Assembly (NCBI GenBank): GCA_032358255.1
Contig: JAULBX010012985.1
Location: 36,708-100,707 of the forward strand
From: Heterotrichella gracilis
Lineage: Eukaryota; Sar; Xanthophyceae; Tribonematales; Xanthonemataceae
Direction of reading: 5' to 3'
DNA: 64,000 nt
Shown: positions 5,273 through 63,061 of the stretch, piece after piece
How positions within the stretch are numbered: the stretch's first letter is position 1
How the letters are laid out: each line of letters opens with the position of its first letter
Notes under the pieces: generated by a model
The model's input: the letters and a program-made list of their open reading frames with translations, nothing else
What the model was told of the DNA's origin: nothing
The model's database searches: none
Translations under genes and position numbers: made by a program

Positions 5273-8200
5273 ATGGCAACTGGGTTCCTAAGCAAAGTGT
5301 TCACCCAAGTGCAAGCAGGCGTGGGCCATCTCCATATTGCTAGCCGCCCAATCCAGCTGCTGGGAGTGACGATAATATCGTTGTTCATACTGGGCCGTGC
5401 TGCTCGGCTTTTTGCGAGGTAAGTGTGAAGACCACCCTGTACCATCCTACCAAAGGTGCATACATGCCAGATGCATGCATATGTTGGATAGGGACAACCG
5501 GCTACAGAGAGCACTGGTAACCAGAAGCGTTCAATACCGCAACCCCTTAACTTGATAGAGCCGCTTGCTGTCTGTTCTGATGACACCCTGCTTGTATTTC
5601 CCAGGTTGAATGCAAGGAGCATCGCAGCTGCAGCCCTGGCCACCACCCTGGCCCTCGCTGTTGGCCCATATGAAACCGCCAAGGTGCTGTGCGCCTGTCT
5701 GGTGCTGCTGGTGGCGGTTCTGACGTGGCGCCAGCCCGTGGACAACATAGGGCACAGATGCGGGTCAGAAGGCTATGCAGGTGGGTCAGTATTGCCCATG
5801 CATGTGCGCACAGTGGCTGGTAAGGGTATTGTAAGGTGGACGTATGCGGCTGTGGAGCGGCGTATGGGGCGCTGTTGGGATAGGAGCTTGTAGGCAAAGG
5901 GTACTGCACGCGTATGGTACTGTAGGCATAGGGTATTGAAGGGGTACTGTAGGGTGGCGTATGGTTGCGGGTAGGTACTGGCTACTGGCGGTTGTGGTGG
6001 CCTTGGTGGTTGGTGGCAGCCCGTGGATACCCTTCAGACCACCAATGGGGGTCACTGGGCTACACATGTGAGCAACGCGCTGCGTGCACTTCAAATCCTG
6101 AACCCTAAACACGCATTTAACCCTAAACCCCAAACCCTAAACCCTGTGAGCAACGCCCTGCTCGCACAGGCCATGAGGTTGCGTATGCCCTTGCTAGTGT
6201 GACACAGGGGTACTCAAGGTTCTGTTTAGGGTACTGTAAGGGTGTGTAGGGTACTGAAGGTATTGGATGCGTACTAGGGATGGTCCTGTGGATGTATATC
6301 TGGTGGGCTACTTGCATGGGTAGGGGGTAGGGTACTGTAGGTGCATACTCACAATATTTTGGTGTGCGCATTTTGGACACCACTGCGAGAACACGCTGGA
6401 GAGCCTGGCGGAGCTGATTTGGTTGCGATCACTCCTGATTGGGTACCGATCACTGTAGGACATCACTGCGAGAACACGCTGGAGAGCCTGTCGGATCTGA
6501 TCAGGAGGGACAACAGCAGCCAGGGGCCACTGCCAAAGCTCTCCTACATAGAGTTTGACATCCAGGTAGCAGTGCTCAGGGTTGCGGGTTGCGGGTTTAG
6601 GATTAGGGTTTAGGATTAGGGTTTGGCATCCAGCTAGGCAGTGGCTGGGTGGTGCTGCTGACTGGCGTTGCAGATCAAGCAGGGTCAAGCCTTGCACTTA
6701 TCTTGTATTTTTGTCGAGGCATGGACATGGACACGGTCAATGGATTTGTTCTCGGCACTGTGCATGGCTAATCCATTTTGTTTTGTGACATGCCGCATGG
6801 AGAGCGTGGTGGCTGTAGAAAGGCACGTGTGGCTGTGCATGGATGCATAGCATGGGTACAGATGTATGGCAGGGAAAGGAGCATTTTGTGTTTAGGTGTG
6901 GCTACCCATCCTGTGTGTAGGAGACGAAGGATGGGGAGCTGGTGGTGTTCCACGACGCAACCCTAGCTAGGGCATTCCCAACAGAGGGGGCGAACGGGGA
7001 GATCCTTCAGTCCCTGGGGATCGATGCATCCCAGCTGGGATCAACACGCGTGCAGGTGGGTGCACAGCCTGGCTTGCACATGCTTGCACAGCTGACCCCG
7101 TTTTTGCATTGTGTGTTGGGCTTTCATATTATCCCTGGGATGAACACTGTGCACTGTGCAGGTGGGTGAACAGCATGGCGTGCACATGCATACACTGGCT
7201 GACCCCTTGCATGCTACATTTTGGCGTGGGAATGTGACCAGCGCCTTAGCCTCCCCTACGCGCAATGGGCCATGCTTCATCGCCATGCATGGGGCACCCT
7301 TGCAAGCCTAAAGCCTGAACCCTAAACCCCAAACCTTGCAATCTCCTGAGTCATACAATGTTGCTCTAGGATGTGACCCTCCATGAGCTGCAGCGGTTGC
7401 GCATCGGCGGGCGGGAGGGGGTGCATGTGCCCACACTGGAGGCATTCCTCAGGTAATGATCGCTGCTGATCAGGTAGGCAATTACTGCTGATCACATATC
7501 AATTATGTGCCCACACTGGAGGCGTAGTTTAGGAAACCCCGAGCGGGGATTTTTCTGAATTCTAAGCAGGTTGTTGTGCGTGACATGGCATGCTGTGCTG
7601 GCTCGCAGGTGCTGTTCCGAGCACAAGGCCTGCCGGACCATTGCGGTGGAGGTGAAGGAATTGCACTCCAATGCAGCCAGGCTCAAGCTCGTGGAGCTGC
7701 TTATGTGCGTATGGTGCACAGCATCGCATCTAATGTCTTGCATTGAGCTTCAAGGTTGAGGGCTGTTTTAGGGTTTGTGTAGGTTTTATCTCGCAGTGGA
7801 GGGGAAGGCACTGCTCAGCATTGCAGCCAGGCTCATCGACCCACTCATCTGCGCCACTCATCTGCGCCACATGGCATTGATATGAATATTGCACCTTGAT
7901 GGTGCGGCATCTTGATCTTGGGCAAGCGGCTGGCTGCATTTCACAACTTCAGTGAAGTTCAATGTTGTGCACGTGCTTGGGTCATAGTCGTGAGATTATA
8001 CTTCACGGTATATGGGTACATGGTCACCCAAGTCAGAATGTAATCTGCCACAGTGATACAGCGGCTCGCTGGCGGTTAACCTCGCTATACTGATGAAATG
8101 CATGTATTTATTTAAAACCAAAATAAAATCTGAATAACTAAATTGTGGACCAATCGCAGGGACTACAAGAGCAGAGAGTGTCAGCGGCTACACGAGCTCC

Positions 8201-8394
8201 ACCTGGCGCAGCAGTACAGGCCCTTCCAATGGATTGGGGTCATCTGCTTTCCAGACGTGCTGGAACACAGCTTTGGAGCTTTTGGGTCCATTGAGTGGCA
8301 GTTCTGGGCGCGGAGGTTCACGAGGGCAGGGATACCACTGCGGTCGTGCGTGTTCCATGCGCTTGACTACACGTATGGAAGCTCCTTGGAGTAA
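5273..8394 (+). CDS. Glycerophosphodiester phosphodiesterase (GDPD) family protein, membrane-anchored
   Basis: Seven exons join in frame: 5273..5418, 5605..5780, 6459..6565, 6921..7055, 7370..7452, 7609..7704, 8160..8394 (325 aa). GDPD enzymes are TIM barrels that hydrolyse glycerophosphodiesters to glycerol-3-phosphate and an alcohol, using metal. Family signatures are present in order: HR at about residues 99-100, ENTLESL, IEFDIQ (138-143), then TKDGELVVFHD with the catalytic-type His at about 154, and a later VEVKEL strand. The first 90 residues hold two hydrophobic segments (near 28-42 and 55-88), so membrane anchoring with an ER or plastid location is likely. Two things are odd. Four extra residues (GHHC) stand between the HR motif and ENT, and the C-terminal strand usually carrying a Trp-x-Val-Asn motif is not obvious, so a further exon could be missing. 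Activity is inferred from motifs only. Confidence 0.85.
6375..6420 (+). repeat. Upstream copy of the start of GDPD exon 3
   Basis: The bases ggaca(c/t)cactgcgagaacacg and what follows repeat the beginning of the exon at 6459 with few changes. This copy lacks an AG acceptor directly before it (ttttgg instead of tgtag), so it is probably skipped. Confidence 0.8.
6579..6626 (+). repeat. Telomere-like TTTAGGG cluster in a GDPD intron
   Basis: Degenerate repeats of gggtttagg/attaggg begin 14 bases after the exon 3 donor. They resemble plant-type telomere repeats but are too few and irregular to be a chromosome end. Confidence 0.7.
7157..7206 (+). repeat. Downstream copy of the GDPD exon 4 donor region
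   Basis: About 50 bases from tgcag|gtgggt onward at 7051-7100 recur here with scattered substitutions, placing a second potential donor about 106 bp into the intron. Confidence 0.75.
7504..7850 (+). repeat. Downstream partial copies of GDPD exons 5 and 6
   Basis: The stretch 7504-7532 repeats the end of exon 5 (gtgcccacactggaggc), with the splice donor degraded. The stretch 7794-7850 repeats the exon 6 segment around gcagccaggctc in diverged form. Neither keeps the gene's reading frame usefully. Confidence 0.65.
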
Positions 8395-9460: not shown

Positions 9461-12400
9461 ATGCCTAGCAACCAGGACACCCTGCTGTTCGAGGAAGAGA
9501 TGCAGGAGGGGTTCCTCCAGCAGCTATGGAGGACCTCCACGTGGAGGCTGTTCCCCATGCTCTTCACATACATCACGGGTGAGGGTCCCAGGTTACAGCA
9601 CTACTATGCGTTTACCCTTTGGGGATGCATCCACCCACAGGTACCAGGTCATACACTCCTATCCTGCACAAGCCGTCTGTCAAGTGCACCAGCTTCATAC
9701 ATGTCGTATCTGGCGCACAGTGCTTACACCTGGGTGTGGGCCCTGGTATCTGGGCCTTTTCTGGTAGCCAGCCTGTAGGTTGCCTGTAGGGTGGGGTTAG
9801 GGTTTTGGGGTGATGTTGGAGGTTTAGAGTTTTGGGTCATTGCTGGTTGTGGGTGATGCATGGCCTGTGGCAAGCCGTGGACACGTACAGGAGGTGCACA
9901 TACCGTGCTGATTCCCGCCGCAAACCCTAAACCCTAAACCCAGACCAAGATGTACCCCATCCAGGAGTAGCCTACACCCACCCACACCACAGCAAGCGCA
10001 CCATGTTATCATCATATCCCTAGTACAAGGCCATCTGCTCTGCATAGGGTCCATGCAGAACCCCTTCCCCGCTGCTGATGCTCTCCCATGCCCCCCCCCC
10101 CACACACACACACCGCACACCAGCCCTCAACCCCCACCCCCTCCCCCCACCCCAGGCCTCATCATGCTGGCCCCCGTCACCCCCACCCTCCTCACCGACT
10201 TCTTCGCATCCCACCGCGCACACGAGACCCTGCACTGCGAGGACTTCAAGAGCGGCGAGGCCCCTGATGCGTGCATCAACGCGCACTCTGACACAGTGGT
10301 GTGGAGCTCGCTCAGCTCCTTTGTGTCAAACGCCATCCTGTCTTTCTTGATGGTGCGTGCTTACCTCTGCATCAACCCTAAGTTGACTGTAACCTCAACC
10401 TGAACTTTAGCCCCGATCCTCTGCAGCAACACCAATTTACTCGCTGCATGTAAATTGACCACTCACATGTGGTGCATGCAAGCCACCCTCAACACCGCTG
10501 CATGTAAAATACTGAACATTGATCCACTTTAACCACCCCCCTGCCACCACCCCCAACTCCCACAGGCGCCCATCATCGGGGATTGGAGCGATGCGTATGG
10601 CCACACACCATTCCTATTGGCAGGCCAGCTTTTCTTGACTCCACCACTGGCTGGTTGGCGCATGTCACCCAATCACATGCATCTGACAAACACCCCCCTA
10701 CTTGCTCACTCACCACCCACATGCACTCCACAGGCGCCCATCATCGGGGACTGGAGCGATGCGTACGGCCGCAAGCCCTTCCTATTGGCAGGTCAGCTTT
10801 TTCAGATGATCCCCGTGGTTGTGCTGCTGGCGCATCTGACTGCAGGCCTCCCGCTGTTCTTCTACTTCCCAGCCAGCGCATTCAGTGGGGGGGTGTCCAC
10901 CATCTCTATCTCGCTGGCATATGTGGCGGATTTTATGGAGCCTCGGCACAGGTGGGGGCAATATGCACTGCAATGATCACAATCACAGTACATTTTAACA
11001 TTGTAAATTCTGTGGACCACGGGATAAGCCGAAGTGAGCGGTGTTTTTCGTGTTTTGATACTATGGCAGTAAACTGCATATGGTGGCGTATGGATGTGCG
11101 GACACACACATGCTCGCATGGAACCGCACACCAACACCCCATCCACCCACCCACCCACTTACCCACAAAAATCTCCACAGGGCCCCTGCGTTTGGCCTCA
11201 TCATGGCATCATTCTCAGTGGGCGCACTGGTTGGGCCCATATTGGGAGGTTTCCTTCAGCCCATCCAAGCGGCATGGGCCTCGTTCGGCGCCATGTCCTT
11301 CTGCCTGTGCTACACCCTAGTAGGGTTGAAGGAGTCACTCTCGCCTGAGGCCATGCAGCAGGTGGGGTCACGTAATAGGCACTGAGGGAAATGTATCGAT
11401 ATTTGATGTGTTGGCATGGGAGGGAGTGCGCACAAAAGGTGGCCATTTCCACTCCCACGTCACCAGCATGCCGGGTTGTGACGTGGCCTTATGGCGCATG
11501 CATTCATGTCATGTCATTTGCATTCTTGAACCCGCATTTGAGCCACTCGTGCCTTTGGCTTGCAGGCCATCCGGCGCCAGAAGGAGGGCAGCCGCCACGC
11601 GTTTGGCTCCACCTTCCGGGCCCTGCGCATCCTCATGCGCAGCCGCCTGTTCCAGAAGCTTACCGTGTGCCTCATGATGACCGGGGTGGTGTTTGAGGGG
11701 GTTATGGACCTGCTCATGCAGTACCTGCAGGTAGGGTGTAGGGTTTATATTTTAGGGTGCAGGGTTTATTGTTTAGGGTGTAGGGTGTAGGGTGGTATTT
11801 TGAGGGGGTCGTGGACCTGCAGGTATGAAATATAAATTATTAACTGTACATTCATATTTTTAGATTTACATGGACTGACCTCAATAGCAGGACCTTGAGC
11901 TGGCATTACAATTCTTCCACCATACATCGCAAACGCTCAACTGCTTGGCGCCGCATGTGCAAGTCCGACTGCTACTGGTGAAGTCAACCCAGAAACCTGT
12001 TGCAAACCCTAAACCCCACCCACCAACCCGCAGATCAAGCTCAACTTCCGGATCAAGGACCAGGCCATCCTGTTTGAGGTGTGGGGCCTGTCAAGCCTGG
12101 TGGTGCAGGCGCTGCTGCTGCGCCCGCTGCTCAGCATATTTGGGGAGACGCGGGTGCTGTGCATAGGTGAGACAGGATTTGAAAAGGGCAATAAGGGCAT
12201 CCCAGTGCAGCAAAAATGAAATGGGCACGCTTGCATTCGAATTGTCTTTCGGGCATGGGTGGTGAAGGCGGTGCTGTTGCGGCCACTGCTGTATATCTTG
12301 TATGATTGTAATGAAACATTAATCGTACATCATATGATTTTTAATTCTTGTCCCCTCTTTCCCTGCAGGCCTGCTGGGCAGCCTGGTGCAGCAGATTCTG

Positions 12401-14127
12401 TATGCCCTTGTGGAGAACAAGGGAATGGCGTATGCGGCTGCGGCTGTGGGCTCGATAGGTGCGCACTCAACCCTGCAAATGAGCGTGAACCCGATAAAAA
12501 CAGGGGGCGCGGTGCCTAAAGGAGCCATTGTCCTGGGGTGTGCGCCCTAGTGCTCTATGATGTGCATGCGTTGTGGCTTTACAAGGTGCCTTGTGCGGGG
12601 TGTTCCGCCGCTGGTGGTGCCAATACACTGTACACCTTTAAAGAAAGCAAATGGTTGCCTGCCTTCAAGTAAAACCACATGGTTGCATGCTCGGTGGCCT
12701 TTAGTTGTTTGTTTGAGCATAAGACAGCAACAATATATTTCCCTCGCCCAGCAAAAAACCATTTATTTTACAGGCTCTGTCGCCTTCCCCGCCACCAGCA
12801 GCATCAAGTCTGTAAATGAGGAGGAACATGGGCAGACTGAAAATAAAACAAACAGTTGACCAAATTGGCTGCAAACAAAAGCGCGGGCCATTCTGCTACA
12901 AATCTCGCCGCGCCAAAAGGCATTTTGTCAACTGCTTGCTTTTTGCTTGTCTGCAGGTTCTGTCGCATTCCCCGCTATTAGCAGCATCAAGTCTGTCAAT
13001 GCAGAGGAGCACGAGCAGGGCGCGGTGCAGGGGGCGCTCTACGGGGCCCGATCTCTGGCCATGGGCTTTGGACCCATCCTCTTTGCATGGGTGTTCACCC
13101 TTTTCACCCGCACAGATCGGCCCGAGTACATCCCCTACTACCCCGGGGCGCCCTTCATCCTCGCGGCAGTGCTGCTGATTATCCCCCTTGGGGTGGCGCT
13201 CACCATCAGCAAGCATGCGGGCAAGGGCGCCAGGCGATCACAGTCGTTCAAGGTGGGTGGGGCAGGGGAGGCCGGCAATGTTGCATGCGTTGACACTACC
13301 AGCATGCGGTGGGTAAGGGAGGGTGTGGGGTGCTGTGGGGGTGGGTGGGGGTGCACCATGCGTCATGTCGATGGGCGTTGTCTCACCATCAGCCTGTACC
13401 AACCTTAGCTAAGAAGGAGATTTGCAGTCGTTCAAGGTGGGTGGTGGGTGGGTGGAGGACGGGGGTGGCCTTGCTTGCATGCAGGACTAGAGTAGCTTTG
13501 GTACTGGTACGTGGTGGTTGAGGCAGGGTGGTGAGATTTCCAGTTTGTTTTTTCCAAGTTTCTTTCAAGTTGGGTGGGGGTTGGCTCAAGACCAACCGAA
13601 ATGTTATTCATCATGAAAACACTTTGCAGAAGTGCTTCAAATATCTTGTTATCTTGCGAATATGTGTGCAAAGGCTGCTGCTGAGCAAGCGGCTGAACTA
13701 GAGCGAGGAACCGGGGTAGAGCCGGGGACTCTCCCGCCATCCAGCCTGGAGCAGCGGGACGCAGATGACGAGCCAAAATTCTATCAAATATTGGAAAAAA
13801 ATAGCCATACCATTATAAACTGGATTTCAAACTGAACTGAATTTGTATGTACAGGCTGCAGCGGAGCAGGCCGCAGAGCTAGAGCGAGGAACCTCGGGTG
13901 AGCCAGGGATCCCCACGCCAACGAGCCTGGAGCAGCGCGACGCAGATGGGGAGCTGTACGTGGAGCGGGTGGACTTGGAGGGCAAGGCGTTTGTGCTGGG
14001 GATCCCCAGCGGCGTCTCGCGCCTGGGGGAAAGGGCGAAGCACAGCAAGAAGATGCCGGGGAGGGAATATGTGTCGGAGCCTGAAGCGATCAAGGGCCCA
14101 CGCACTTCGCTGCATCGCCAGGAGTGA
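9461..14127 (+). CDS. Major facilitator superfamily transporter, MFSD14/TetA-like
   Basis: Nine exons join in frame: 9461..9578, 10156..10352, 10734..10951, 11181..11361, 11566..11730, 12034..12166, 12369..12458, 12957..13252, 13855..14127 (556 aa). The protein is a polytopic membrane carrier. The MFS motif A loop is clear at about residues 110-120 (GDWSDAYGRKP), between helices 2 and 3. It is followed by hydrophobic helices and a motif C-like GALVGPILGG segment in exon 4. The long loop after helix 1 with the acidic ETLHCEDFKSGE stretch, and the DTVVWSSLSSF segment, recall the HIAT1/MFSD14 and tetracycline-resistance-like branch of MFS. The substrate cannot be read from sequence. The C-terminal tail of about 90 residues is hydrophilic, Glu-rich and probably cytosolic. 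Three introns carry extra copies of the next exon's start (see repeats). Start codon: the upstream in-phase context has a tag stop in the overlapping frame, and this ATG opens the longest consistent model. Confidence 0.9.
9924..9945 (+). repeat. Telomere-like CCCTAAA pair in MFS intron 1
   Basis: Two to three perfect ccctaaa units stand in the first intron of the transporter gene. A looser gggttagggtttt run lies at 9788-9838 in the same intron. Confidence 0.8.
10561..10634 (+). repeat. Upstream copy of the start of MFS exon 3, with acceptor
   Basis: This stretch repeats 10729-10803, including the cacag acceptor and the first 25 or so codons. In the copy the motif A residues read YGHTPF rather than YGRKPF, and the frame continues into the intron. 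The AG acceptor is intact, so inclusion in some transcripts is possible in principle. Confidence 0.85.
11731..11794 (+). repeat. Telomere-like degenerate TTTAGGG run after MFS exon 5
   Basis: The intron begins with repeated gtagggt, tttaggg and gggttta words. The splice donor of exon 5 (gtaggg) is itself the first unit of this run. Confidence 0.75.
12771..12837 (+). repeat. Upstream copy of the start of MFS exon 8, with acceptor
   Basis: Here the codons for SVAFPA-SSIKSVN-EEH are repeated with synonymous and non-synonymous changes, 186 bases before the exon used at 12957. The acceptor AG is intact, but the frame runs out within the intron. Confidence 0.85.
13671..13772 (+). repeat. Upstream copy of the start of MFS exon 9, with acceptor
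   Basis: The AAAEQAAELERGT segment through the SLEQRDAD segment is duplicated about 184 bases upstream of the used exon. Divergence is moderate and the open frame is kept over 34 codons, which suggests either recent origin or some constraint. Confidence 0.85.
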
Positions 14128-15366: not shown

Positions 15367-19366
<4,000 letters not shown>

Positions 19367-20380: not shown

Positions 20381-31309
<10,929 letters not shown>

Positions 31310-44677: not shown

Positions 44678-44710
<33 letters not shown>

Positions 44711-47700: not shown

Positions 47701-49051
47701 AACCCGGCGCTTTCCAAAACCCTAAACCTAAACCCTAAACCCTAAATCCCCCTTGCGTAGGTTCCCCCGGCGGTCCACCCCCGAGCAATGTGAGGGGTGC
47801 AACGTGCATGCGCGCGGCATCACCGATGCCCTGACCACAGCCCTGCGCACGGGGGAGATTAAAGTGAGGGACACCAGGTTCCTGCTGAATGTGCACGACT
47901 GGGGCAAATGCGACGACCTGGCTGACCCTTTCAACCCCTACTCGGGCTGCCCCGCGCCCCTGTTCAGCCTCATCAAGCGCAATGGGACTGGAGACCTGCT
48001 GGTGCCCCAGGTGGGTGGGTAGGGTTTTTATAATGTAGGGTGTGAGGGGATGGGGTTTGGGCTTCCAAACTCACTGCATTTGCGTGACATGGGTATTGAA
48101 AATGGACCCCATTGACCCCTACTCGGGCTGCCCCGCGCCCCTGTTGAGCCTCATCAAGCGCAATGGGACTGGAGACCTGCCGGTGCCCCAGGTGGGTGGG
48201 TAGGGTTTTGGAGGGTTTAGTGTGCGAGGGGATGGGGTTTGGCACCCAGAATCACTGCATTTGCATGACATGGGTTTTCAAGGTAGGGTTTTTATAATGT
48301 GAAGCGTGAGGGGTTTGGATTGGGGCCCCACATCACTGCGTTATTGAAATCAGCTCCTTGTGCACATGGGTTCTTAACCTAGCTGTGCCGCAGGTGTTAT
48401 CAACTCAATGCATGCATATGCTTTGACTTCCATTTCACATGCTGTTAACTCCTTTCTCACGACCCGCAGATGGCGCAGACCGAGGTGGACGCGCCCATGA
48501 ACCACCCATGGGAGCAGAAGCAAGAGACAGCCTTCTGGCGGGGGACCAAATTCTGTGCGGAGCACGCCCCCCACTACATCGGCGGCGAAATCGTGGAATG
48601 CTCCCGCATGGTCCTCCCCCTGGTGTCCCAATTCTTCCCCGAGCACCTCAACTGCAGCCTGGTGCGGCGATTCAACCTCCCCTCCTACATCACCAACGTG
48701 CCCCTTGCCGCGCACGCGCAGTACAAGTACCTGTTCGGTCTCGATGGCTTCACCGCTTCCTATCGGCTGTACAAGATCGCCATGACAAACTCGGTGATCC
48801 TCAAGCAGGAGTCGGGGTATATCGAGTATTTCTACCGCTCCTTTAAAAAGTGCGTGCATTACTACCCGGTGTATATTCGGTCGGAGATAGATGCTCTGCC
48901 CACCGTGCGGTACCTAAAGGCCAATGATGAGGTGGCCAAGAGGCTGGCGGCAAATTCGCAGCATTTCTCGGCCACCTATTTGACCCGGGCACAGCGGCTG
49001 AAGTTCTGGGAGGCGGCGCTGGAGGCCTATACTTCCCTCATGCGCGGGTGA
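44735..49051 (+). CDS. Family 90 glycosyltransferase (CAP10/POGLUT-like), type II membrane protein
   Basis: Seven exons join in frame: 44735..45520, 45752..45850, 46151..46282, 46630..46769, 47117..47218, 47761..48010, 48470..49051 (696 aa). GT90 enzymes transfer glucose or xylose to proteins (Rumi/POGLUT) or polysaccharides (fungal CAP10), in the ER/Golgi. The C-terminal exon has the family core: FWRGTKF (about 525-531), YKYLFGLDGFTASYRLYKI (588-606), the NSVILKQESGYIEYFY block, and the HYYPVYI segment. The N-terminus has a short basic/Thr-rich head and a hydrophobic MLLLLLACVSIPVVSG segment at residues 36-51, which gives either a type II anchor or, from the internal Met, a signal peptide. 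Residues about 115-195 are a tandem Gln/Pro/Thr/Leu linker with unusual telomere-like codon content. EQCEGCN plus LLNVHDWGKCDD lies in exon 6. Acceptor substrate unknown. Copies of exon ends occur in four introns and after the stop. Confidence 0.88.
45085..45275 (+). repeat. In-frame tandem linker repeats containing CCCTA words
   Basis: A unit of 36 to 39 bases encoding TKTLAQQPAGD-like residues recurs five times. Each unit contains aaaccctag, aagccctat or aaccctaac, so the repeated Thr-Leu or Ala-Leu pair is encoded by a telomere-like word. Confidence 0.85.
46051..46092 (+). repeat. Upstream copy of the GT90 exon 3 start
   Basis: The sequence gcag|gatgtgaacgctcag and the gtgcgcccagtttgttcaag segment repeat the exon at 46151, with one internal shortening. 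The acceptor is intact. Confidence 0.8.
47521..47697 (+). repeat. Two upstream copies of the GT90 exon 6 start
   Basis: Copies at 47521-47578 and 47639-47697 repeat gcag|gttccc through the cccgag and gaggggtgcaacgtgca segments of the exon at 47761, at about 118-base spacing. Each is preceded by aaaccctaaacccccct, so telomere-like text forms part of the repeated unit. Both copies have AG acceptors. Confidence 0.9.
48113..48210 (+). repeat. Downstream copy of the GT90 exon 6 donor end
   Basis: About 97 bases repeat the exon end (cctactcgggctgccccgcg to ggtgccccag|gtgggtggg) with only a few changes, 181 bases downstream. It is one of the least diverged copies in the window and keeps a perfect donor. 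Confidence 0.9.
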
Positions 49052-49128: not shown

Positions 49129-49495
49129 GGGATTTTCCATGGAATGTTTCGGCCACATGTACAACCTGCCAGCAGTATTTTGGGGGGCAGCGCTGGAGGG
49201 CTACACTTTGTTAATGCGAGAGTGACATGCGGGAGTTTTCTGTTTAGAGTGTAGGGTTTAGGGTTATCACCGTGGGGGAGGATGGAGAGTTCATGCGGCG
49301 GTGCACTGACGGGCGGCAAAAGGGGAGGGGGCTGGTGAACCATCACGTTCAACGATTCAGGCATCTTGGTGATTAATTGCGGCATCCAATGAAATTTTCC
49401 ACTGCATTTTTCAGCCAGCTACTTGTCCTGCCAGCAGATTTCAAGCTTTGGGTTCCTCATGGAGGCCTCCACCTTGCTCATGTTCGCGTGAACTG
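49129..49495 (+). repeat. Two decayed copies of the GT90 terminal exon end
   Basis: The stretches 49129-49224 and about 49391-49492 resemble the last 95 bases of the coding exon (catttctcggccacctatt to ctccctcatgcgcg). They lie beyond the stop codon, in the 3' UTR or flank. Confidence 0.7.
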
Positions 49496-50948: not shown

Positions 50949-52789
50949 CTAGAAGCCAGTAGCTGGGGGCAGGGGCGAGCTAGTGTCGATTGGCACACCC
51001 GCCAGGCGGTCGGTGAGCTGCTGCAGCACAGGCTTCCTCTCAATCAATTCCTGCACAGCGAAGGCTGCGACAGCAAGCATGGCCAAGCGCCCATTGTTCA
51101 GCTCCTTGGTCTGCATGTCCTTCCTGCCAGCTGGGTCCTGGGGGAGCAGGCCCAGGGGGTCGAACCCTCCATTGCCGGGCTCATAGTCGTCCCTGAGGGT
51201 GTAGAAGCGGGAGCCGGTGGGGAAGGCCCAGCCCACCGCCACGCGGTAAGATTCGGCGATGCCGATGGCGATGGTGATGGGCAGCCAGAAGATGGTGCCC
51301 TTCGCCTCCACTTGCTGGAAGTGGGTGAGGGCGGGGCCTGCGGTGGGAAAGGGCAAATTAGGGTCAGAATTGGTGGCAACAATCCCTTTCTGCAAGGTTG
51401 GCATTTGCAAGTACAATGCCATACCAATATGTTATTTCCCAGCAATAGATCTAATTATGTACAATGACTGACAATGCATATTCAATGCATATTTGCATGG
51501 GCAACAATTTCTACCCTTTATGATACTACTGCAGGCGCATAGCTCTTAGGCATAAATCAACAACCATATTCCTCCATGCATACAGGTTCAGAGGACACTG
51601 AACCACAAGTAATGGGTCCTACCTGTCACGTGTGGGAAGGGTGCGGATTGCCAGTCAGCCACAAACTGCTCCTGCACCAGCCAGCCCAGGGCAGCCAACA
51701 TGGCAACGCGGCCGTGGGTGATCTCACTCTCCCTCCACCTGCAGGATTCAACAATAGGTTTCCAGTGTTCGGCATGGAAATCCAACTAAATCAATGATGC
51801 CACATATGGGCACTACAATCAGGTGGAATTGGCTGCGCATGGCGAATAGGACTTGGCTGTTAACATACTGCCATGCCAGTGGTGCTGTGGCAAGGTTTTA
51901 AGACACCATTCCAGTACAAATGAGCAGAGGATGCTGGCCCTGCCAGTGGCGCCAAACTACCCCTCCAAAAGTGGGTGCAGCACTCGCCCAACTCATGCCA
52001 TTTTGTCTGGCAAAGACTGATGCAGAACATCTCATACCCCACACAATGTTTCTGGCTACCTAAGTAACTTCACAGACATAGAGTGCCATCAAATTTTGCA
52101 CTGCCAGCATGCACCCTCTGGCACCGCAGTCAGCCAACACCCACCTGCGCAGCTCCTTCTTTGGCTCGTTGGTTGAGCCCACGTATGCCAGCATGTTGAG
52201 GGGGTCGAACAGGTTGGGGAAGGGCTGGCTCACACCGGGCATCTTCTTGGCGTCTGCATAGGAATCAACAGAAATTGTCAGGGATGGAACTGTGGGTTCT
52301 TCAGGCAGGGCTGGGGCAGGGTTGGGTATTCGCAGGAGCATGACAGTGTGCCTCATATGACGCGCAAGCACGAGGAACACAAAGCGACAGGACAGGAGAC
52401 TTTACTGCTCTAAATGAACCATTCTGGTGATTTGCAGCGACGAACTAGGCCCCAACAGGCAATGTGTGCATGCGCATGCCGCTTCTAGACATGACTAACT
52501 TCAAGGAATTGAGTTCCCAGATCAGGCAAATGTGCAGGCTGCAGTGCAGGGTGCAGGGGGTATACTTACATGTGATGATGTCCTCGTCCACCTGGGGGGA
52601 GGTGGGGCCGGAGGAGCCGCCGGAGATGTCGTCAGCGAACTTCTTCATCTCCTCGATGGGGCCCTTGGAGGCATACACGGTGTTGGCCAGGGTCCTGCGG
52701 GGCGCCTTGCTGCTGCCGCCCAGGCTCGCGCGCCGCAGCGCGGGCGTGGTGGCGAGGATGCACCTCGAGGTGAGACCGGAAGCCATCAT
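50949..52789 (-). CDS. LHCSR: Light-harvesting complex stress-related protein (LHCSR/LI818 type)
   Basis: Four exons join in frame: 52789..52570, 52253..52145, 51738..51623, 51337..50949 (277 aa). LHCSR proteins bind chlorophyll and xanthophylls in thylakoid membranes and dissipate excess excitation as heat (qE) in algae. A Ser/Arg/Thr-rich chloroplast transit peptide fills roughly the first 35-40 residues. Three helices follow: helix 1 with [13 protein letters not shown] (112-124), helix 2 with [17 protein letters not shown] (169-185), and helix 3 with [16 protein letters not shown] (226-241). [15 protein letters not shown] between helices 2 and 3 is diagnostic of the LHCSR branch rather than LHCA/LHCB. 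The ATG at 52789 is followed directly by a second ATG, and either could start. A TATA-like box lies upstream. Compared with Chlamydomonas LHCSR3, the tail after helix 3 is short of acidic residues ([22 protein letters not shown]). LHCSR genes are typically induced by high light; no such element was identified here. Confidence 0.93.
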
Positions 52790-54487: not shown

Positions 54488-54570
54488 CTGGTGACTCACA
54501 GGGACCTCTCCGCCATGCCCGTTGCCGCGCGCTGGTGCCTGCCCCCCCCTTGCATGGGCTGCCCAGATGG
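54488..54570 (-). repeat. Downstream copy of the CSN1 terminal exon end
   Basis: The segment cagggacctctccgccatgcc through gcgcgctggtgcctgcccc and tgcatgggctgccca repeats the region at 54615-54680 with few changes. It lies beyond the stop codon on the minus strand. Confidence 0.85.
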
Positions 54571-54611: not shown

Positions 54612-57600
54612 TCACAGGGACCTCTCCGCCATGCCCATTGCCGCGCGCTGGTGCCTGCCCCCCCCCTGCATGGGCTGCCCACGCTGCACAAAGTCGTGCT
54701 GCATGATGCTCGCGCGCAGCAGCAGCGCGCGGGTGGTGCGCAGGCAGTCCTCGCCTGCAGGGGGGTAGGAGGGTGTTGGGGATACTGGGTAGGGGAATAG
54801 GGTTTTGTGCGGGTGCAGGGCGGGGCAGCGCAAGGGGTGGGTGGAGGCGGGGTTGGTGGGTTACAGCGGCACAGGGAGAGGGAGGAGATAGGGTTTTGCG
54901 GTGTGCTGTGGTGCATGATACTGGCATGCGGCAGCAGCGCGCAGGTGGTCCGCGGGCACTTCTTGCCTGCAGGGGGTTAGTGGCGATGGTTGAATAGGGT
55001 GGAAGGACTCTGCCCAGCATCAGGACTCTGCCCAGCATCATCAGGGCGCAGGTGGTGCACAAGAAGTTGTCATTAATAGGACAGGGCCTTGCCCAACTGA
55101 TGTGCCCCTTCATCATTTTGTAGCAGGGCGTAGGGTTTGCGCTAGGGTTTGCGCGCTCACCGTGCTGCATGGCCCCATGGAAGGTCGTGTTCCTCTGGTT
55201 GGCGGTGCGCGCATACAGCACCTTGGCGTGGGAGTCGATGCGTGCCTTGACCTGCCCGCTCATGATGAGGTCCGCAAGCTCACGCTCTATGCCACTGCAG
55301 CAGGGGGGTAGCGGCGATTGTGGGTTTGGGGGATGAGGCAGTGGTGGGTGGGGTGGCACAAGAGATTCTAGTTCGTTTACTTTCGCTGCATAATGCAAGC
55401 AGAGTGGGGTCGTGGGTGATGGGGTGTTGAAGTGGTCGATGCGGGCCTTGACCTGTACGCTCATGATGAGGTCTATGCCGCTGCCCAAGGGAGGGGAAGG
55501 CGGTGGTGGGTGGGTGGTGACAGAGTGGGGGTAGCCCTTTGCCATGCCGCTGCAGAATGGCAGCCCAATGGTGTCCAGGTCGAAGCACGTGAAGGGCAGG
55601 GTGCACAGGACGAGGGCGCGGGTGCGGTACCCACCTCGCCTCCCCGCCACCACCTTCACCGCCACCACCAAGGCAACCCCACTTCCCCTCCCCTCCCCTC
55701 CTCTCCTACTCCCCTCCCCCCCCCCCCCCAAACCACCACCACCACCACCAGCACCGCCACCCACCTGACGTCCGTGTTGAACGCCGCCGCCATGGTGTGC
55801 AGGTTGACCGAGGTAAAGGGAACGGAGTACTGGATGAGGGTGCGGGAGCAGTACCCACCCTCACCTCCCCGCCACCACCTTCACCAAGGCAATCCCCCCT
55901 CCCCTCCCCTCCCCTCCCCTCCCCGTCACCACCATCAACGCCATCTCCAGGCAGTTCCCCCTACCGACACCCACCAGCACCACCCCCACCCACCTGACGT
56001 CCGTGTTGAACGCCGCCGCCATGGTGTGCAGGTTGACCGACGTGAAGGGCACTGTGTACTGGATGAGGGCGCGCGAGCGGATTGCTGCGTACAGGTGCGC
56101 CACGTGGGGGTGCAGGTGGATGTCGAGTGCCAGCTGGCGCTGCAGGCGGGCCAGGGTGTTGAGGGCGCGGGTGTAGCGGGAGGCGTGGAAGTCAGAGATG
56201 AGCTCGCGCACCTGGGGGTGGGTGGGAGGGAAGTTTAGATTAACCTTGAAAAATAATGGATATTTTTTAGGGTAGAGGGCAGGTTTGAAGCGCAGTGCAG
56301 CATTTCCTAAGGTGGTTTGGGGTTGCACAAGGTGAGGGTTTGGGTTGCGTTTGGGGTGGGATTCCTTGTGGCGATAGATGAGTGCACGTGTGTGACGGGA
56401 GACGTGGAATTCAGAGGTGAGCTCGAATCATCAGGTGTAGCATGTACACCAATGTCCTGAGTCATCTCCCTGCCCTGCGCCGCCTCCACCGCCATAGCAG
56501 CATCTCCTCAACTTCTACGCACCTCCGGCACCAGCTCCAGCACCTCTGTGAACCCCACCTTGTCCACCACCTCGCACTTGAGCTCCCATCCAACCTCCAA
56601 CGGCAGCCATCTGCCTCCCTTGCCACCACTCACCTCCCATCCCCACCACCATCCCCCAGCATCCCACCCACCTCTGGCACCAGCTCCAGCATCTCCCTGA
56701 ACCCCACGTTGTCCACCACCTTGGACTTGAGCTCCTGGCGGTCAAAGGAGGCAAGCGCGCACAGGCCGCCATACAAAGCCAGGTCCTGGGGGGAAAGGGG
56801 AATGTAATAAGACAAAAACTAGTAGGGCCTTGTTATTCAGTTTTCTACCCTTGGGGAGGGGGAGGGCAAGGGGTGTGTGGAGAGGTGGCGTGGCGCAAAG
56901 CGCAGTCTGGGGCGGAGGGGTTATAAGTGGAAAGAAACGGGACGGCATGTGGGATTTTAGCTCCTGGCGGTCAAAGGAGGCAAGGGCGTACAGGCTGCCT
57001 ACAGGGCCAGGTCCTGTGAGTGGGTAAATAGGTGAGTGGGTCAACGACCCATGTAAAATGCCTTTTTGCAGGGGAAATGGTGGGTGGATCGGTGCGCTTT
57101 TGGGGAAGGAAAGGTACCAAACAAACCCTGCCAATACCCCTCACCTGCGGCGCATTGACCTCGCACCACCGCAACCCCAGCTCAGGGCTGAACCCCATGA
57201 ACCTAATCCAAAACCCTAATTAAAACCCTAATAAATCCCCAGCAGCAACCCTCACCTGCGGCGCGAGGACCTCGCACCACTGCGACCCCAGCTCAGGGCT
57301 GACCTCCGTGAACCGAACCCAAAACCCTACCCAAAACCCTAGCAGCCACCCTCACCTGCGGCGCGATGACCTCACACCACTGCGACCCAAGCTCAGGGCT
57401 GACCTCCGTGAACCTGCGCGCTGCTGTGCGGTACTTCTTGGTCTCCAGGGCCAGCAGTCCAGCCGCCACCTTGATCTTGCCGGCAATCACTGGGTCCTGC
57501 AGAGGGGGTACAAAATGTAGAGGGGGTAAAAAATATAGAGGGGGTAAAGAAAAGCAGGGCCGCAGCCACCTTGATCTTGCCGGCAATCACTGGGTCCTGC

Positions 57601-59999
57601 GGGGAGTGCAATAAAGTGGTTTAATTACTGAAAGAAATTGACGTTTAATGAAGCGTCATGTGCTGATTCTGCCGGGGAGTTTTATGACGTGTCATTCCAT
57701 GTGATGATCCTACCAGCGATCATGGGGTGGGTGGAGCGGAGCGGTGATCGGGAGTTTGATTGCAATTGTCACCCAATTGACAATGCAACGACTGCCATGT
57801 GGCATCCCCCAATCCCGCATCCCCACTCTCCACCACCTCCGGAGTCTGCTCCGCCTTCTGCACGTAGTTGTGCACATGCGTGTAGTTGCCCAACCCCCAA
57901 CCCCTACCACTGCAGACATCCATTCCACCTCAAATGCACATGAATGCAACCGTCGATAACCCCCCCACCATCCCAAGCACCACCACCTCCAATTCCTGAT
58001 TTGCATTGTGTGCCTGTAAATGCAGTTCGGTCATGACTCATGACCCCTACCCCCAACCCCGCCCAACTCACCACCACCTCCAGCGTCTGCTCCCCATTCT
58101 GCACGTAGTTGTGCACATGCATGCCATTGGCCGCCCCCCACCCACAACCATCCAACCCCCACTCCCGCATCCCCACTCACCACCACCTCCGGCGTCTGCT
58201 CCGCCTTCTGAACATAGTTGTGCACGTGCGTGTAGTTGCCCATCTCCAGCGCCACCTTGACTATGTGCAGGCACATGGTGATGATGTGGCGCGAGGTGGT
58301 GCAGTAGTCGCGCGTGCGCACGTAGCTCTTGAACGCGCCCTGCGGGTGGAGGTGGGTGGGAGGATGGTGTGCGTTGGGAAATGTGGGGATCAATCCAGCA
58401 GTGGTGGTGGTGTGCACGTGGATGTAATTGCCGGAAGGCCATGTTTGAATTTGTGCAGGCACGTGGTGATGATGTGGCGAGGTGGTGCAGTAGTCGCGCG
58501 TGCGCACGTAGCTCTTCAACGCGCCCTGTGAGTGGGGTGTGGGGGGAGCTATGGGAAGTGTGGGGGGTGGTGGCATTCATGGAAGTTGGGTCACATGGGT
58601 AGCAACCCAGCGCAGTGGTGGAGGTGGAGGTGTGTACGTGCGTGTAGCTCTTGAACGCGGGGTGAAATGGGGGGTGGAGGCAGGTCAGGTTGGGACAGCG
58701 CCAGTTGCGGTGATGGGGATTTGGCTAAATTCCGAACCCCAGCCCACTGTGGCCCAACCGCCATGCAGCTAACCACTGGAATGCAGACATGGCAACCATC
58801 ATCGCCACCACGTGGTGCAGCAAAGACAGCGGCACCCACCACCACCACCTGCATATCCACCACCGCCACCACCACCTTGACTGCCACAGCCACCCATCCA
58901 GCAGGTCTCCACTCTCGTAGAATACCACCCCCGGCTCGCAGTGTCCCATGCACCACCACCACTACCACCACCACCCACCTGCAGGTCCCCCCTCTCATAA
59001 AAGAAATCCCCCAGCTCGTTGTGCCCCTGGCGTATGCTCTCCTTGATCAGGTTAGTCTTGAAGTGGTTCAGCTCCGTCTCGAGCTTGTCCTGCTTCTGGG
59101 CCGCCCTGTTGTCAATAATATCCACCCAGTCCCTGCAAAAAACGGGTTGCAATGTCACAGTTGCAGTTATTTGCCTGTCCCAGGTGACTGGGCACACGTT
59201 ATGTATATCCATCCACTCCCTGCAATTCCTGAGTGCCAGGTTGGTTGGACAGGATCAAGTAAACAGACGTTGGTGGGACAAACTTGGTTGGAACACATAG
59301 GTTGCAGGGCTGGACCAACTGGGTTGGTTGGACAAAACAAGGATGGTTATCTAGGCAGTGGCCACTGTATGCAGGTACAGCACTTGTGGGTACCTGTCTG
59401 CTATGTACTTTGGCCCCAGCCTGCCCCCTATGCGCTTCATCACGTCGAGGTACCGGCTGGTGTTCTCAGTCTGTGAGCAAGGGAGTCGAGGTTTTTCAAA
59501 AGGTGGCAAGGAACAAGGGTTTTGCAGTGCAGCCAGGCAAGCAGTGCCCCAGGCACAGCTTGTTGCCACCCAGCTCTGTTTTGGGAAGGATGCTAGGTGA
59601 CCCACTGTGCACTGTATTTTGCATCAGGTCTGTGACATAGAAGTGATATAAACTGGTCCACCTAGTTATTCAAGCACCAGCCGGGCAGAGAGAGAAGGAG
59701 TATTGCTTGGGCATTGACAAAGCACTGGTGGCACCATACCTTTTTGAGCTCATCTGCAGCCAGTTTCAGAGCTTCCAGCTCCAGAGGGGTGTGGCCTGAC
59801 CTATCAGCGATAAAAATCAGCCGATCTATCTTTGCATGCGAGGTGTAGTTTGAAGCATACGCCTACAGGAGAGCCAAGGCAGGGAGTCTTGATAAATCCT
59901 GACATGCATCATCAGTGCACCCACCATGCATGCAGGACGATGCAGCCTGTGGCTTACCTCCAGGTCGAAGCTGAACTCCTCTGGCTGATCGATTTCCAT
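54612..59999 (-). CDS. CSN1: COP9 signalosome complex subunit 1
   Basis: Ten exons join in frame: 59999..59958, 59862..59740, 59470..59394, 59132..58979, 58339..58181, 57496..57356, 56785..56672, 56211..55994, 55294..55161, 54754..54612 (434 aa, against about 440 in plants). CSN1 is a PCI-domain scaffold subunit of the COP9 signalosome, which removes NEDD8 from cullins in the nucleus and cytosol. Recognisable blocks in order are: [145 protein letters not shown], the winged-helix [28 protein letters not shown], and a C-terminal [12 protein letters not shown]. The N-terminus is short. Copies of exon ends occur in at least five introns, which makes automatic gene prediction here error-prone. The last residues after HDF depend on a 9-G run; one base more or less would change the tail. 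Confidence 0.93.
54935..55075 (-). repeat. Upstream partial copies of the CSN1 last-exon acceptor
   Basis: The stretches 54935-54975 and about 55030-55065 repeat gcagcagcgcgc-ggtggt-cgc-g plus the tgcctgcag acceptor in decayed form. Confidence 0.65.
55430..55860 (-). repeat. Copies of CSN1 exon 9 acceptor part and exon 8 donor part
   Basis: The stretch 55434-55490 repeats part of exon 9 (gcgggccttgacctg and ctcatgatgaggtc). The stretches 55752-55860 and about 55556-55632 repeat the exon 8 end (acctgacgtccgtgttgaac, then gccatggtgtgcaggttgac, then the gtactggatgagg segment). The nearer copy is highly similar and keeps a GT donor on the minus strand. Confidence 0.85.
56515..56590 (-). repeat. 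Downstream copy of the CSN1 exon 7 donor end
   Basis: The segment accagctccagca, then accccac-ttgtccaccacct, then cttgagctcc repeats the used exon end at 56672-56735, about 150 bases downstream. Confidence 0.8.
56952..57015 (-). repeat. Upstream copy of the CSN1 exon 7 acceptor end
   Basis: The segment agctcctggcggtcaaagg through caggccaggtcctg-like text repeats 56730-56790. The copy has lost several bases in the middle, so it is out of frame. Confidence 0.75.
57138..57603 (-). repeat. Copies of both ends of CSN1 exon 6
   Basis: The donor side recurs twice downstream on the minus strand, at about 57138-57202 and 57249-57318 (ctcacctgcggcgc, cctcgcaccac, cagctcagggctga), with telomere-like aaaccctaa text between. 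The acceptor side recurs once upstream at about 57557-57603. Confidence 0.85.
57827..58130 (-). repeat. Two downstream copies of the CSN1 exon 5 donor end
   Basis: The stretches 57827-57895 and 58066-58130 repeat caccacctcc-g-gtctgctcc, then ttctgcacgtagttgtgcac of the exon end at 58181. The nearer copy has the donor GT on the minus strand. Confidence 0.85.
58436..58660 (-). repeat. Upstream copies of CSN1 exon 5
   Basis: The stretch 58436-58545 repeats most of the first 90 bases of exon 5 including an AG acceptor, but an internal deletion (gatgtggcga against gatgtggcgcga) shifts its frame. A shorter copy (gtagctcttgaacgcg) lies at about 58643-58658. Confidence 0.85.
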
Positions 60000-60693: not shown

Positions 60694-63061
60694 ATGGGGA
60701 CCTCTGAGGCAGAAGCAGACAAGTTCCTGAAGCAAGCAGCCAAGCTATGTTCGCCCTCCATGCTTTCCCTGAGGTTCAAGCCTGACTGGGACCAAGCCAC
60801 TCCCCTTTATGAAGCAGCTGCTGTCACCTACAAGGTATTGTGCCCCACCCAGAATGTGCTATCCCTTTGTCCACAGAGGGTGCTCGACATGGGTTATGCA
60901 AGCGTGCAGCGTGGGTGGCTGTAGAGGGTGCACAGGCCTGTTTCTACGGACATGGACACAACCCCTTGTCCACAGAGACAGGCCTGTTCAATGCCACAGG
61001 GTTCATTGTACTTTCAAGGAGGATACAGTTGTGCACTCTCAGGCTTTGACAGGCCTGTTGTCTGACGCTTGCGACAACCACTGCAGAGGCTCAACAAGCT
61101 AGAAAAAGCGCAGCTTGCCTTTGAGAAAGCAGCCGAAGGCCAGGACATGATCCGCTCCCCGTGGAATGCCGCCAAGCACATGGAGAAAGCTGGCGAGTGC
61201 GCCAAGCAGCTGGGCAAAGTGGACCAAGTGCTGGACTTCTACAAGTAAGCTCCCCAGCTACAGCTACGCACCCACTTGGTGGCATGTGTGCTGACATGCA
61301 TACCGCTTTGCCTTGACAAGGTTCCCAACTGCTGGCATTTGGGTATTTGCTCAGATTTTCCCTCGTTATAGAGTCCGCGTAGAATGCCATGGCTGAACAT
61401 TTGCAAACACAGTTTGTTGGCATACAAGCTGACATGCTTGACGTGCGTTGCAGGAAAGCTGCAGACTACTATAACATAGCTGGGAGGAACTCCACCGCAG
61501 CGGACTGCCTTGCCAAAGCAGCGAAAATGATGGAGGACACAGACCCCAAGGTAATAGATTATTGGTACTAATATTTCTTGCCATTCCCGCAAGAAAAAAC
61601 AGATCAGCAGTCAGCCCTGCACAAGCCTGCGCCACCTAGCCCTGTCCTGACACTGCTTGTACCATTTCTGGTGGTAGATAGGGGTAACATGTAGTATTCC
61701 TCAGCGTGCATGTCTGTATCAACCTTGCCTTTCCTTCTGTCACTTCACCACCACAGTGCTGCAAGGTCACCCATGCACACTACTCCACAGCTTCTTGTTT
61801 CATGTAATACATTTCATCACCAGCGCACTCAGCACTCTCTGCATTTCTACCCAGCTGGCAAACGACCTGTACTTGGAGGCCATCGCGGCACTGGAAGCCG
61901 ACGGCAAGGAGGGCCTGGCTGGGGACATTTTCAGGCAGGCTATTGGCTGCCAGCTGAAAGCGGAGCGGCATGCAGAGGCTGTGTCTCTGCTCCTGAAGTT
62001 TGCCGCTGCGTGTGAGAACGTTAAGGCAAAATCCAGCCAGTGCAAAGCCTACCTGGGAGCTGTGGTGACATGGCTGTATGCCAAGGATGCCAAACAGGCG
62101 TGGGCGACGTTCCAGGTATGGCACCGCATGTTACCAATGCAGCTGCTGCACTGGTAGAGCATGGTCTACATGCAGAGCGTGGGGGACGTGTGGCATGCCG
62201 CAGTGGTGCCCATACAGCTAGTGCACTGGTAAGAAATGACAGCACAGCATCTTTCTTGGGCACCATGCTGTGCATGTGTTGTGGATCATGCTGCAGCAAA
62301 CGATGCACTGGTATGACACAATGGTGAAGGCCTGGGCAGTCATGCACATTGCATCTCAATGCCGCATGTGTCTCACCAACAGCCGTTAGCTTCTCTAGTT
62401 GCACTCATTGTCATGCTAGCTGCCGAGGTTTCATTGTAATCTAGGAAATTTGGCATGGTTTGCAAGTGTCCACGTCACCTATTGTGGAATCAATTGCATG
62501 CTGTTTATCCTTGTGGCAGCCTGGGGATTGCCATGCCCATTTTTCAGCAGCTTATCGCATCTGCCTCGATGCTAATGTAACCCCTATCACTTTCCTCAGG
62601 ACGCGCTCTCAGTGGACGCATTCGTCACCTCAATAGTCATGCCAGTCATTGCATCTGTTCTTAACAGTCAATCAATAGTACTGTTGCACATTTCCCATCA
62701 CTCCATGCATGTCATGAAGCACTGCATGGGACTAAATGCTAGTCATGCCCATCAATCTTCCTCAGCAATGCTAACCAAGATCATGAACCCTCCTCAGGAT
62801 GCCCTGTCAGTGGATGCCTTCCTCAGCTCCGACGAAGCCTTTGCTGCAGAGGCGCTGTTCGACGCATACAAGACAGGCGACCCGCAGCTGGTCAAGCAGT
62901 GCGTGGAAACCAGGTCAGCGCTCTTCTTCAGCCTGGATAACCAAGTTGCCAGGCTGGCGCGCAAGCTGCCCACGGGGGATGTGGGTGACATGGCGGTGGC
63001 CCTGGGTGGGGCAACGGGGGCGGTACAGCTGGGGGGGGACGACGGGGACGATTTCACGTGA
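60694..63061 (+). CDS. Gamma-soluble NSF attachment protein (gamma-SNAP)
   Basis: Five exons join in frame: 60694..60834, 61087..61244, 61454..61550, 61855..62115, 62798..63061 (306 aa, close to the roughly 312 of animal gamma-SNAP). SNAPs bind SNARE bundles and recruit the AAA ATPase NSF, which recycles SNAREs after membrane fusion. The protein is all helical with TPR-like hairpins. Recognisable parts are the N-terminal LRFKPDWDQATPLYEAAAVTYK, then AAKHMEKAGECAKQLGK, the KAADYYNIAGRNSTAADCLAKAAKMMED helix pair, DIFRQAIGCQLKAERHAEAV, and FAAEALFDAYKTGDPQLVKQCV near the end. FKPDW and the AAKHMEKAG block favour gamma over alpha SNAP. The C-terminus is Gly/Asp-rich and acidic. A copy of the exon 5 start lies upstream in the last intron. 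Confidence 0.92.
62598..62650 (+). repeat. Upstream copy of the gamma-SNAP exon 5 start
   Basis: The segment tcag|ga-gc-ct-tcagtgga-gc-ttc repeats the used exon at 62798 in diverged form, with an intact acceptor. The intron text before both (atgccagtca / catgcccatcaat) is also related. Confidence 0.75.

Follow-up and report, generated by a model that had tools for sequence, protein, structure and literature searches.

Genes of the window

The present analysis concerns a window of 64,000 nt from Heterotrichella gracilis (Xanthophyceae; assembly GCA_032358255.1, contig JAULBX010012985.1, positions 36,708 to 100,707) and the copies of exon ends found in its noncoding DNA. The window comprises ten modelled genes with 93 exons, 83 introns and 186 coding sequence (CDS) edges, and all counts given below refer to it. 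At 42 of the 186 edges a diverged direct copy was detected in the adjoining noncoding DNA. These copies are probably the traces of recurrent tandem duplications of about 60-280 bp, the unit of which straddles the edge of a coding exon, and which lengthen introns.

The genes were modelled with a small gene finder based on codon use and splice consensus, and the models were then adjusted by eye and by reading frame:

5273..8394, + strand: GDPD gene (PF03009), modelled with 7 exons and approximate towards the 3' end
9461..14127, + strand: MFS transporter gene (PF07690), 10 modelled exons
15367..19366, + strand: UDP-galactopyranose mutase (UGM) gene, exons matching PDB 3uka over query residues 6-508
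20381..31309, - strand: kinesin gene (PF00225), approximate at 27830-28060, 28916 and 24371-24424
32754..37173, + strand: proline-rich gene, limits of the middle exon approximate
38920..42336, + strand: acyltransferase-like gene (PF01553, E=6e-4, under the Pfam cut-off)
44840..49050, + strand: glycosyltransferase family 90 (GT90) gene (PF05686), 3' end uncertain (stop at 49050 or donor at 49047)
50949..52789, - strand: LHC-family gene (PF00504)
54612..59999, - strand: COP9 signalosome subunit 1 (CSN1) gene (PDB 9is6/4lct)
60694..63061, + strand: gamma-SNAP gene (PDB 2ifu)

Gene identity was checked against Pfam and solved structures (CSN1, gamma-SNAP, UGM, the LHC family and kinesin); the structures 9is6 and 4lct are of plant proteins. 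The CSN1 match, together with the LHC-family gene and TTTAGGG-type repeats, gives the genome a green-alga-like appearance. The proline-rich gene is without a Pfam match at E<=0.01. The Pfam match of the GT90 gene ends at 324 of 396, which bears on the possible donor at 49047. Searches with CSN1 (viral_contigs, genome_contigs) and UGM (viral_contigs) found no relative, and scans of the window for RNA genes gave no match with Rfam at gathering score and none with ARAGORN. A two-exon gene model at 102-1509 (- strand) lies outside the ten counted genes.

Copies of exon edges in noncoding DNA

Self-BLAST of the window gave 74 direct matches no more than 600 bp apart at E<=10 and 51 at E<=1e-3, and five shuffled windows used as controls gave 0, 0, 1, 0 and 0 matches within 600 bp. 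At greater distances there were 101 direct matches at E<=10 and 3 at E<=1e-3; one inverted match reached E<=1e-3. The local matches form 44 clusters, 38 of which pair an exon end with noncoding DNA. The other six are two coding repeat regions (34228-34911 and 45085-45285), an intergenic short-period repeat (49690), a 22-bp intron pair (16898), a second intron pair starting at a donor (31141) and the cluster at 12771-13018, both copies of which touch exons. The region 34228-34911 is a proline-rich exon whose coding repeats are nested, among them a unit of 51 bp present 4.7 times, and 45085-45285 holds 33/99-bp coding repeats in the N-terminal region of GT90. At 31141-31262 a CCCTAAA-rich 57-bp direct repeat begins at the donor of kinesin exon 1, with no exon bases in the match.

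Copies were detected at 22 of 83 acceptors, 18 of 83 donors, two of ten stops and none of ten starts. CSN1 has the largest share (13/20 edges), followed by kinesin (9/50), MFS (7/20), GDPD (4/14), GT90 (3/14), the proline-rich gene (2/14), the acyltransferase-like gene (2/16), UGM (1/20) and gamma-SNAP (1/10); self-alignment of the window found no copy at the eight edges of the LHC-family gene. A preliminary description of this DNA had seen copies in nine of ten genes, with the LHC gene as the only exception. The exception is borne out, and the figure of nine stands at a permissive threshold; at E<=1e-3 it drops to seven of ten, UGM and gamma-SNAP having one weak copy each. Matches at ten of the 42 edges are weak, with E>1e-3 (7452, 11730, 12166, 13252, 18866, 24092, 40576, 49050, 59132 and 62798); moreover, edges 12807 and 12982 share one match, and 24568 and 24628 share theirs partly. 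Because of these weak and shared matches the number of independent duplication events is nearer forty.

Two to three copies occur at edges 23928, 29591, 41452, 47761, 55994, 57356 and 58181. The units, of 56-278 bp, vary more widely than the spacing of 95-190 bases proposed. Duplication of the adjoining intron text, also claimed, is detectable in 11 families; the remaining families do not show it by itself. Recognisably exon-derived noncoding DNA amounts to 2,378 bases, and all introns together to 27,553 bases. The copies along the window are:

6375..6418, +: acceptor 6459, exon start copied, the copy without AG
7135..7206, +: donor 7055, exon end and intron text copied
7505..7523, +: donor 7452, exon end copied, weak (E=0.08)
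7793..7835, +: donor 7704, exon end copied
10545..10633, +: acceptor 10734, exon start copied
11790..11820, +: donor 11730, exon end copied, weak (E=0.08), telomere-like spacer in front of the copy
12258..12290, +: donor 12166, exon end copied, weak (E=0.02)
12771..13018, +: duplication (d=183) joining small exon 12774-12807 with the start of exon 12982
13425..13444, +: donor 13252, exon end copied, weak (E=0.02)
13658..13773, +: acceptor 13855, exon start copied
18943..18965, +: donor 18866, exon end copied, weak (E=0.02)
20934..21160, -: near exon 20989-21066, an old duplication (69%)
23352..23403, -: acceptor 23283, exon start copied
23626..23870, -: donor 23928, exon end copied three times
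24347..24373, -: acceptor 24092, exon start copied, weak (E=0.08)
24381..24688, -: exon 24568-24628, surrounded by nested duplications
26438..26672, -: acceptor 26380, exon start and intron text, more than one copy
29675..29816, -: acceptor 29591, exon start and intron text copied twice, period 94
30320..30378, -: donor 30424, exon end copied, the copy lying past a (TTTAGGG)-like spacer at 30379-30423
35779..35841, +: donor 35717, exon end copied twice
36180..36235, +: acceptor 36291, exon start copied, followed by a CCCTAAA-rich spacer
40410..40426, +: acceptor 40576, very weak copy of 17 bp (E=1) in telomere-like text
41190..41422, +: acceptor 41452, exon start copied twice
47497..47691, +: acceptor 47761, exon start and CCCTAAA-rich intron text copied twice, period 118
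48115..48342, +: donor 48010, exon end and intron copied, the intron once more in part
49178..49232, +: modelled coding end and stop codon (49050), copied into downstream DNA, E=0.002
54496..54565, -: coding end and stop codon (54612), copied with 68/70 identity
54908..54980, -: acceptor 54754, exon start copied
55435..55473, -: acceptor 55294, exon start copied
55568..55849, -: donor 55994, exon end copied twice
56379..56425, -: acceptor 56211, exon start copied
56517..56586, -: donor 56672, exon end copied
56952..57016, -: acceptor 56785, exon start copied
57138..57314, -: donor 57356, exon end copied twice
57553..57600, -: acceptor 57496, exon start copied, followed by an 18-bp pyrimidine repeat
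57803..58123, -: donor 58181, exon end copied twice
58445..58565, -: acceptor 58339, exon start and intron text copied
58867..58947, -: donor 58979, exon end copied, old
59205..59225, -: acceptor 59132, exon start copied, weak (E=4)
62593..62631, +: acceptor 62798 (gamma-SNAP), exon start copied, weak (E=0.007)

The pyrimidine-rich 18-bp repeat at 57501-57548 (2.7 units) forms the tract before CSN1 acceptor 57496. The modelled stop codons at 54612 and 49050 have a copy each, a donor at 49047 being possible at the latter. On account of these cases the duplication process seems not to be confined to splice sites. At 54496-54727 and 49004-49232 one duplication, probably two, crosses a stop codon into downstream DNA.

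Direction and age of the duplications

For 58 internal exons, each end was compared by alignment with the intron next to it and with the intron on the wrong side, and the exon middles with both introns; exons <90 bp, terminal exons and one proline-rich exon of 1006 bp were omitted. A score >=34 was obtained in 21 of 116 comparisons on the own side and in 0 of 116 on the wrong side, and for 4 of 116 exon middles. Copies thus keep to the intron side of their own edge, as previously described, and exon ends are enriched over exon middles in the window. Such a one-sided pattern is expected from tandem duplication across the edge and not from scattered exon fragments.

Divergence of the best-matching copy at each edge ranges from 0 to 27 per cent, with a median of 10 per cent, and is heterogeneous (p=1.2e-4; 41 of the 42 edges, 40576 being omitted for fewer than 10 aligned bases). 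The duplications therefore do not represent a single burst, and divergence so graded and heterogeneous is unlike assembly error; on both points the preliminary description is upheld. Its youngest example (48113) is identical at 75 of 77 positions in the exon part, the value found for the copy of donor 48010. Mismatches between exon and copy fall on codon positions 1, 2 and 3 in the ratio 70:87:156 (49 unit alignments, overlapping pairs included; the two coding-repeat regions and matches with <10 exon bases on the richer side or >5 on both were dropped). This is about what would be expected if the copy drifts by some 10 per cent and the exon varies only at third positions; a copy under coding constraint would give a stronger third-position bias, which argues against strong coding constraint on the copies. 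They thus appear to drift about neutrally. In 14 of the 49 rows, hand-picked as alignable over the whole unit, differences numbered 67 in 654 exon positions and 193 in 990 intron positions.

Preference for exon edges

Some preference for edges is expected without any targeting, since duplications falling within exons are lost by purging, and the copies of frozen exons stay visible. The 'boundary-anchored' pattern is therefore in part a product of visibility and selection: duplications that spare the frame survive, and the frozen exon keeps the copy recognisable. The extreme form of this explanation, random tandem duplication everywhere with coding damage purged and with no preference for edges, is in our opinion unlikely. 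Survivorship surely plays a part, as apart from the two coding repeat regions no duplication within an exon was seen, and exon parts do outlast intron parts.

Decay was controlled for by a masked test, in which exons and exon-derived copies were hidden so that only noncoding text was left. It retained 11 edge-crossing clusters and 3 noncoding-only clusters, or 2 without the short-period repeat. When the observed unit lengths were placed at random in a collapsed layout, with only tolerated events admitted, 66 per cent of these events were predicted to be noncoding-only, against 2 of 13 (p=0.00029) or 3 of 14 (p=0.00094) observed. Edge-crossing duplication is therefore in several-fold excess over random placement, albeit in small counts. 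Outside the genes, 19.7 kb of DNA contain one noncoding-only candidate, the short-period repeat at 49690.

Forward simulations in which duplication was uniform, substitution and indels were neutral and spacings <40 bp were dropped (in the window, d=18 and d=21), gave the same answer. Twenty-four simulations that grew to 95-112 kb produced 23-51 edge clusters and 46-87 others; in 40 simulations at lower rate (63-80 kb) the lowest ratio of other to edge clusters was 0.78 and the lowest masked ratio 1.40. The same scoring script gave 0.16 (6/38) and 0.27 (3/11) for the window, and none of the 64 simulations approached these ratios. The weak point of the simulations, in favour of the random alternative, is that simulated noncoding text seems to decay more slowly than real text, for which reason we place more trust in the masked comparison. 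Random tandem duplication with purging fails to explain the edge preference, and the preference for exon ends claimed at the outset holds beyond the random expectation.

Splice sites in the copies

Splice dinucleotides are intact in most copies (GT in 16 of 19, AG in 22 of 24), often in good context, and six of 40 alternatives (edges 10734, 21066, 41452, 55294, 59132 and 62798) are open and in frame. These would be the points in favour of a selective maintenance of the copies as alternative or buffering splice sites, an explanation that we regard as very unlikely. About 35 of 43 dinucleotides would be retained after neutral drift of 10 per cent according to our estimate, compared with 38 of 43 observed. 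Unit lengths show no bias towards multiples of three (14/40), and use of the copy's site would shift the frame in 26 of 40 cases and meet a stop codon in 28 of 40. Mismatches do not point to strong coding constraint, and one or two cases concern stop codons rather than splice sites. Neither the retention of GT and AG nor unit length modulo three nor the stops in copies gave a sign of selection for alternative splice sites. The birth of such sites, suggested in the preliminary description, is a conjecture. Duplicated donors do not differ significantly in strength from the others (5.55 versus 5.02, p=0.19; n=18 and 63, two modelled kinesin donors without GT, 27830 and 28916, being omitted).

Intron length and composition

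Introns with copies are longer than those without (median 389 for 31 introns versus 252.5 for 52, p=4e-4), and the gap corresponds to about one unit length. The suggestion that the copies reflect intron growth is thereby strengthened.

Telomere-type 7-mers number 441 in the window, about tenfold the roughly 43 expected, and 346 of them lie in introns (for example, telomere-type text at 11731-11794, 30379-30423 and 47497-47760). Within introns, 86 of 136 7-mers in the TTTAGGG sense lie in the first fifth, and of 210 in the CCCTAAA sense 113 lie in the last two fifths and 41 in the first. The 83 introns are polarised as a whole: from the first to the last decile GGG runs decrease from 87 to 8 and CCC runs increase from 38 to 98.

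The spacers between exon and copy stand out in this respect (runs were counted for 16 of the 18 donors and 20 of the 22 acceptors). Donor spacers have 3.85 GGG runs in 60 bp, compared with 0.88 beyond the last copy (p=0.0015) and 1.12 at donors without copies; the corresponding values for CCC runs at acceptors are 2.86, 0.99 (p=0.004) and 1.54. Telomere 7-mers accompany donors with copies (8/18 versus 7/65 without, p=0.003), and at acceptors the association is not significant (5/22 versus 7/61, p=0.29). Of the 42 spacers 15 contain such 7-mers, as do 11 of the 42 stretches beyond the copy, and the excess in spacers (130 versus 78 seven-mers) is not significant (p=0.11). Exon-side GC is slightly higher at duplicated donors (0.61 versus 0.58, p=0.01) and not clearly so at acceptors (p=0.11). 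Copies per gene correlate with GGG/CCC runs (rho 0.65, p=0.04) and, below significance, with telomere 7-mers (rho 0.58, p=0.08). The G-rich spacer may have entered as filler during repair, may itself make forks stall, or may be the outcome of selection for the splice site in use over its decoy.

Possible origins of the copies

In the recurrent tandem duplication that we consider probable, one event would double either an exon end together with the intron start or an intron end together with the exon start. Splicing would continue at the site attached to the intact exon and the protein would be unchanged; edge-crossing duplications would be harmless because the exon-adjacent site is still used. 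The outer copy would turn into intron and drift neutrally, and repeated events would make the intron longer. From the open reading frames and the PDB alignments of CSN1 and UGM we infer that the product stays intact because one copy is spliced out. As for the cause of the edge preference, we tentatively suggest DNA breaks or fork stalling at exon edges, linked to the G-rich or C-rich, partly telomere-like DNA between exon and copy, which is G-rich on the coding strand at donors and C-rich at acceptors. A stronger version, a lineage with exon-edge-directed duplication in which breaks are repaired by outward re-copying of the edge with G-rich telomere-like DNA laid in between, appears rather improbable to us; if it were true, introns would grow outward from exons and fresh splice sites would be made of filler.

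Related to this is staggered-break repair with filler, in which the outward 3' end gains G-rich, partly TTTAGGG-type DNA and the filled overhang leaves a copy of the edge on the opposite side, so that the splice site now in use would consist of filler. The concentration of G-runs in donor spacers and of C-runs in acceptor spacers would fit such repair, as would the telomere 7-mers that mark donors with copies and the order at edge 30424, where the exon is followed by a 45-bp TTTAGGG-like spacer, the exon-end copy and then different intron text. In the horse, telomeric sequence is reported to have been inserted at staggered breaks with a direct duplication (PMC7215372). Against filler, telomere 7-mers are also found beyond the copy, the association is not significant at acceptors, intron text is plainly duplicated in 11 families, and the strand pattern is equally expected from the needs of splicing; filler thus seems a fairly unlikely origin. 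Telomeric filler is not supported as a general mechanism, the spacer excess having p=0.11. Still more improbable is an assembly artefact or a mobile intron-making, Introner-like element. We found no point in support of either: divergence of 0-27 per cent with its heterogeneity does not resemble assembly error, and three long-range direct matches at E<=1e-3 mean that the window holds no shared intron family.

Several observations weigh against the recurrent edge-crossing duplication that we prefer. The decay-controlled test has only 14 clusters, and CSN1 supplies 13 of the 42 edges; without CSN1 the p value of the G-run signal is 0.036 for donors and 0.43 for acceptors. That signal may be a result of selection on the splice site in use and not a cause of duplication. 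Many families have an exon part about 90 per cent identical and an unclear intron alignment (e.g. 57453, 56723), so that plain tandem duplication needs either fast intron turnover or filler. At donor 48010 the exon has changed at 2 of 77 positions and the intron at 25 of 103, a contrast above the neutral prediction.

Relation to known systems

The closest known case comes from potato, where tandem duplication over an intron-exon boundary of the RdRp gene is reported to have given rise to a new intron confirmed by RNA reads (Ma, Lan and Niu 2016, PMC4974935). There, as in the window, splice signals were carried along and a small former piece of exon is now intronic. The potato case as presented there is one event in one gene creating a new intron, whereas the window has 42 edges in nine of ten genes, mostly with lengthening of existing introns; some of its edges also have several copies, and the events, read from DNA sequence, are of graded age. 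Our search of the open-access literature found no closer case and no account of mass edge-crossing duplication. With a direct nearby copy at 42 of 186 edges, on the correct side, and with intron text detectably included in the unit in 11 families, the phenomenon is an abundant form of a known type of event, edge-crossing tandem genomic duplication, of which potato provides a single case.

Intron gain by tandem duplication and by break repair is covered by a review (PMC3443670). In the former, a short local duplication is likewise tolerated by means of splicing, but an exon segment is doubled and a new intron arises, whereas the units here straddle existing edges. Gain of the Rogers type, with the unit inside an exon and AGGT serving as both splice sites, was not seen at the 42 edges, where copies pair exon ends with noncoding DNA. 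In intron gain at staggered double-strand breaks in Daphnia, direct repeats flank inserted DNA as they do in the window; the Daphnia repeats are described in the same review as short, and the exon parts here are up to about 100 bp long and remain at the edges of exons. Interstitial telomeric insertions (PMC7215372) share with the window telomere-like tracts, some with flanking direct duplication; in that paper their placement looks random, with plain duplication listed at 3 of 66 loci, in contrast to the 7-mers here, which are mainly intronic and present in 15 of 42 spacers. Tandem exon duplication, which yields mutually exclusive exons, does not apply, since nearly all copies are partial exon ends; 12774-12807 and the 24381-24688 cluster may be whole-exon exceptions.

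Introner elements cause mass intron change in protists and algae, a likeness to the window. The introns of this one window are, however, without a common dispersed sequence: two of the three long-range direct matches at E<=1e-3 are >=60 bp, and both involve repetitive stretches. Introner elements are named in PMC12730881.

Lengthening of introns is rarely caught in the act. About one-fifth of the coding edges in this window still show the event, at many ages, and an apparently used splice site and its decoy stand side by side. Exon-edge duplications thus make visible a little-described route of intron growth. If the phenomenon is general in the genome, it would offer a measurable rate of intron growth, open exon edges to study as mutational hot spots, and provide a test of how splicing chooses between near-identical neighbouring sites.

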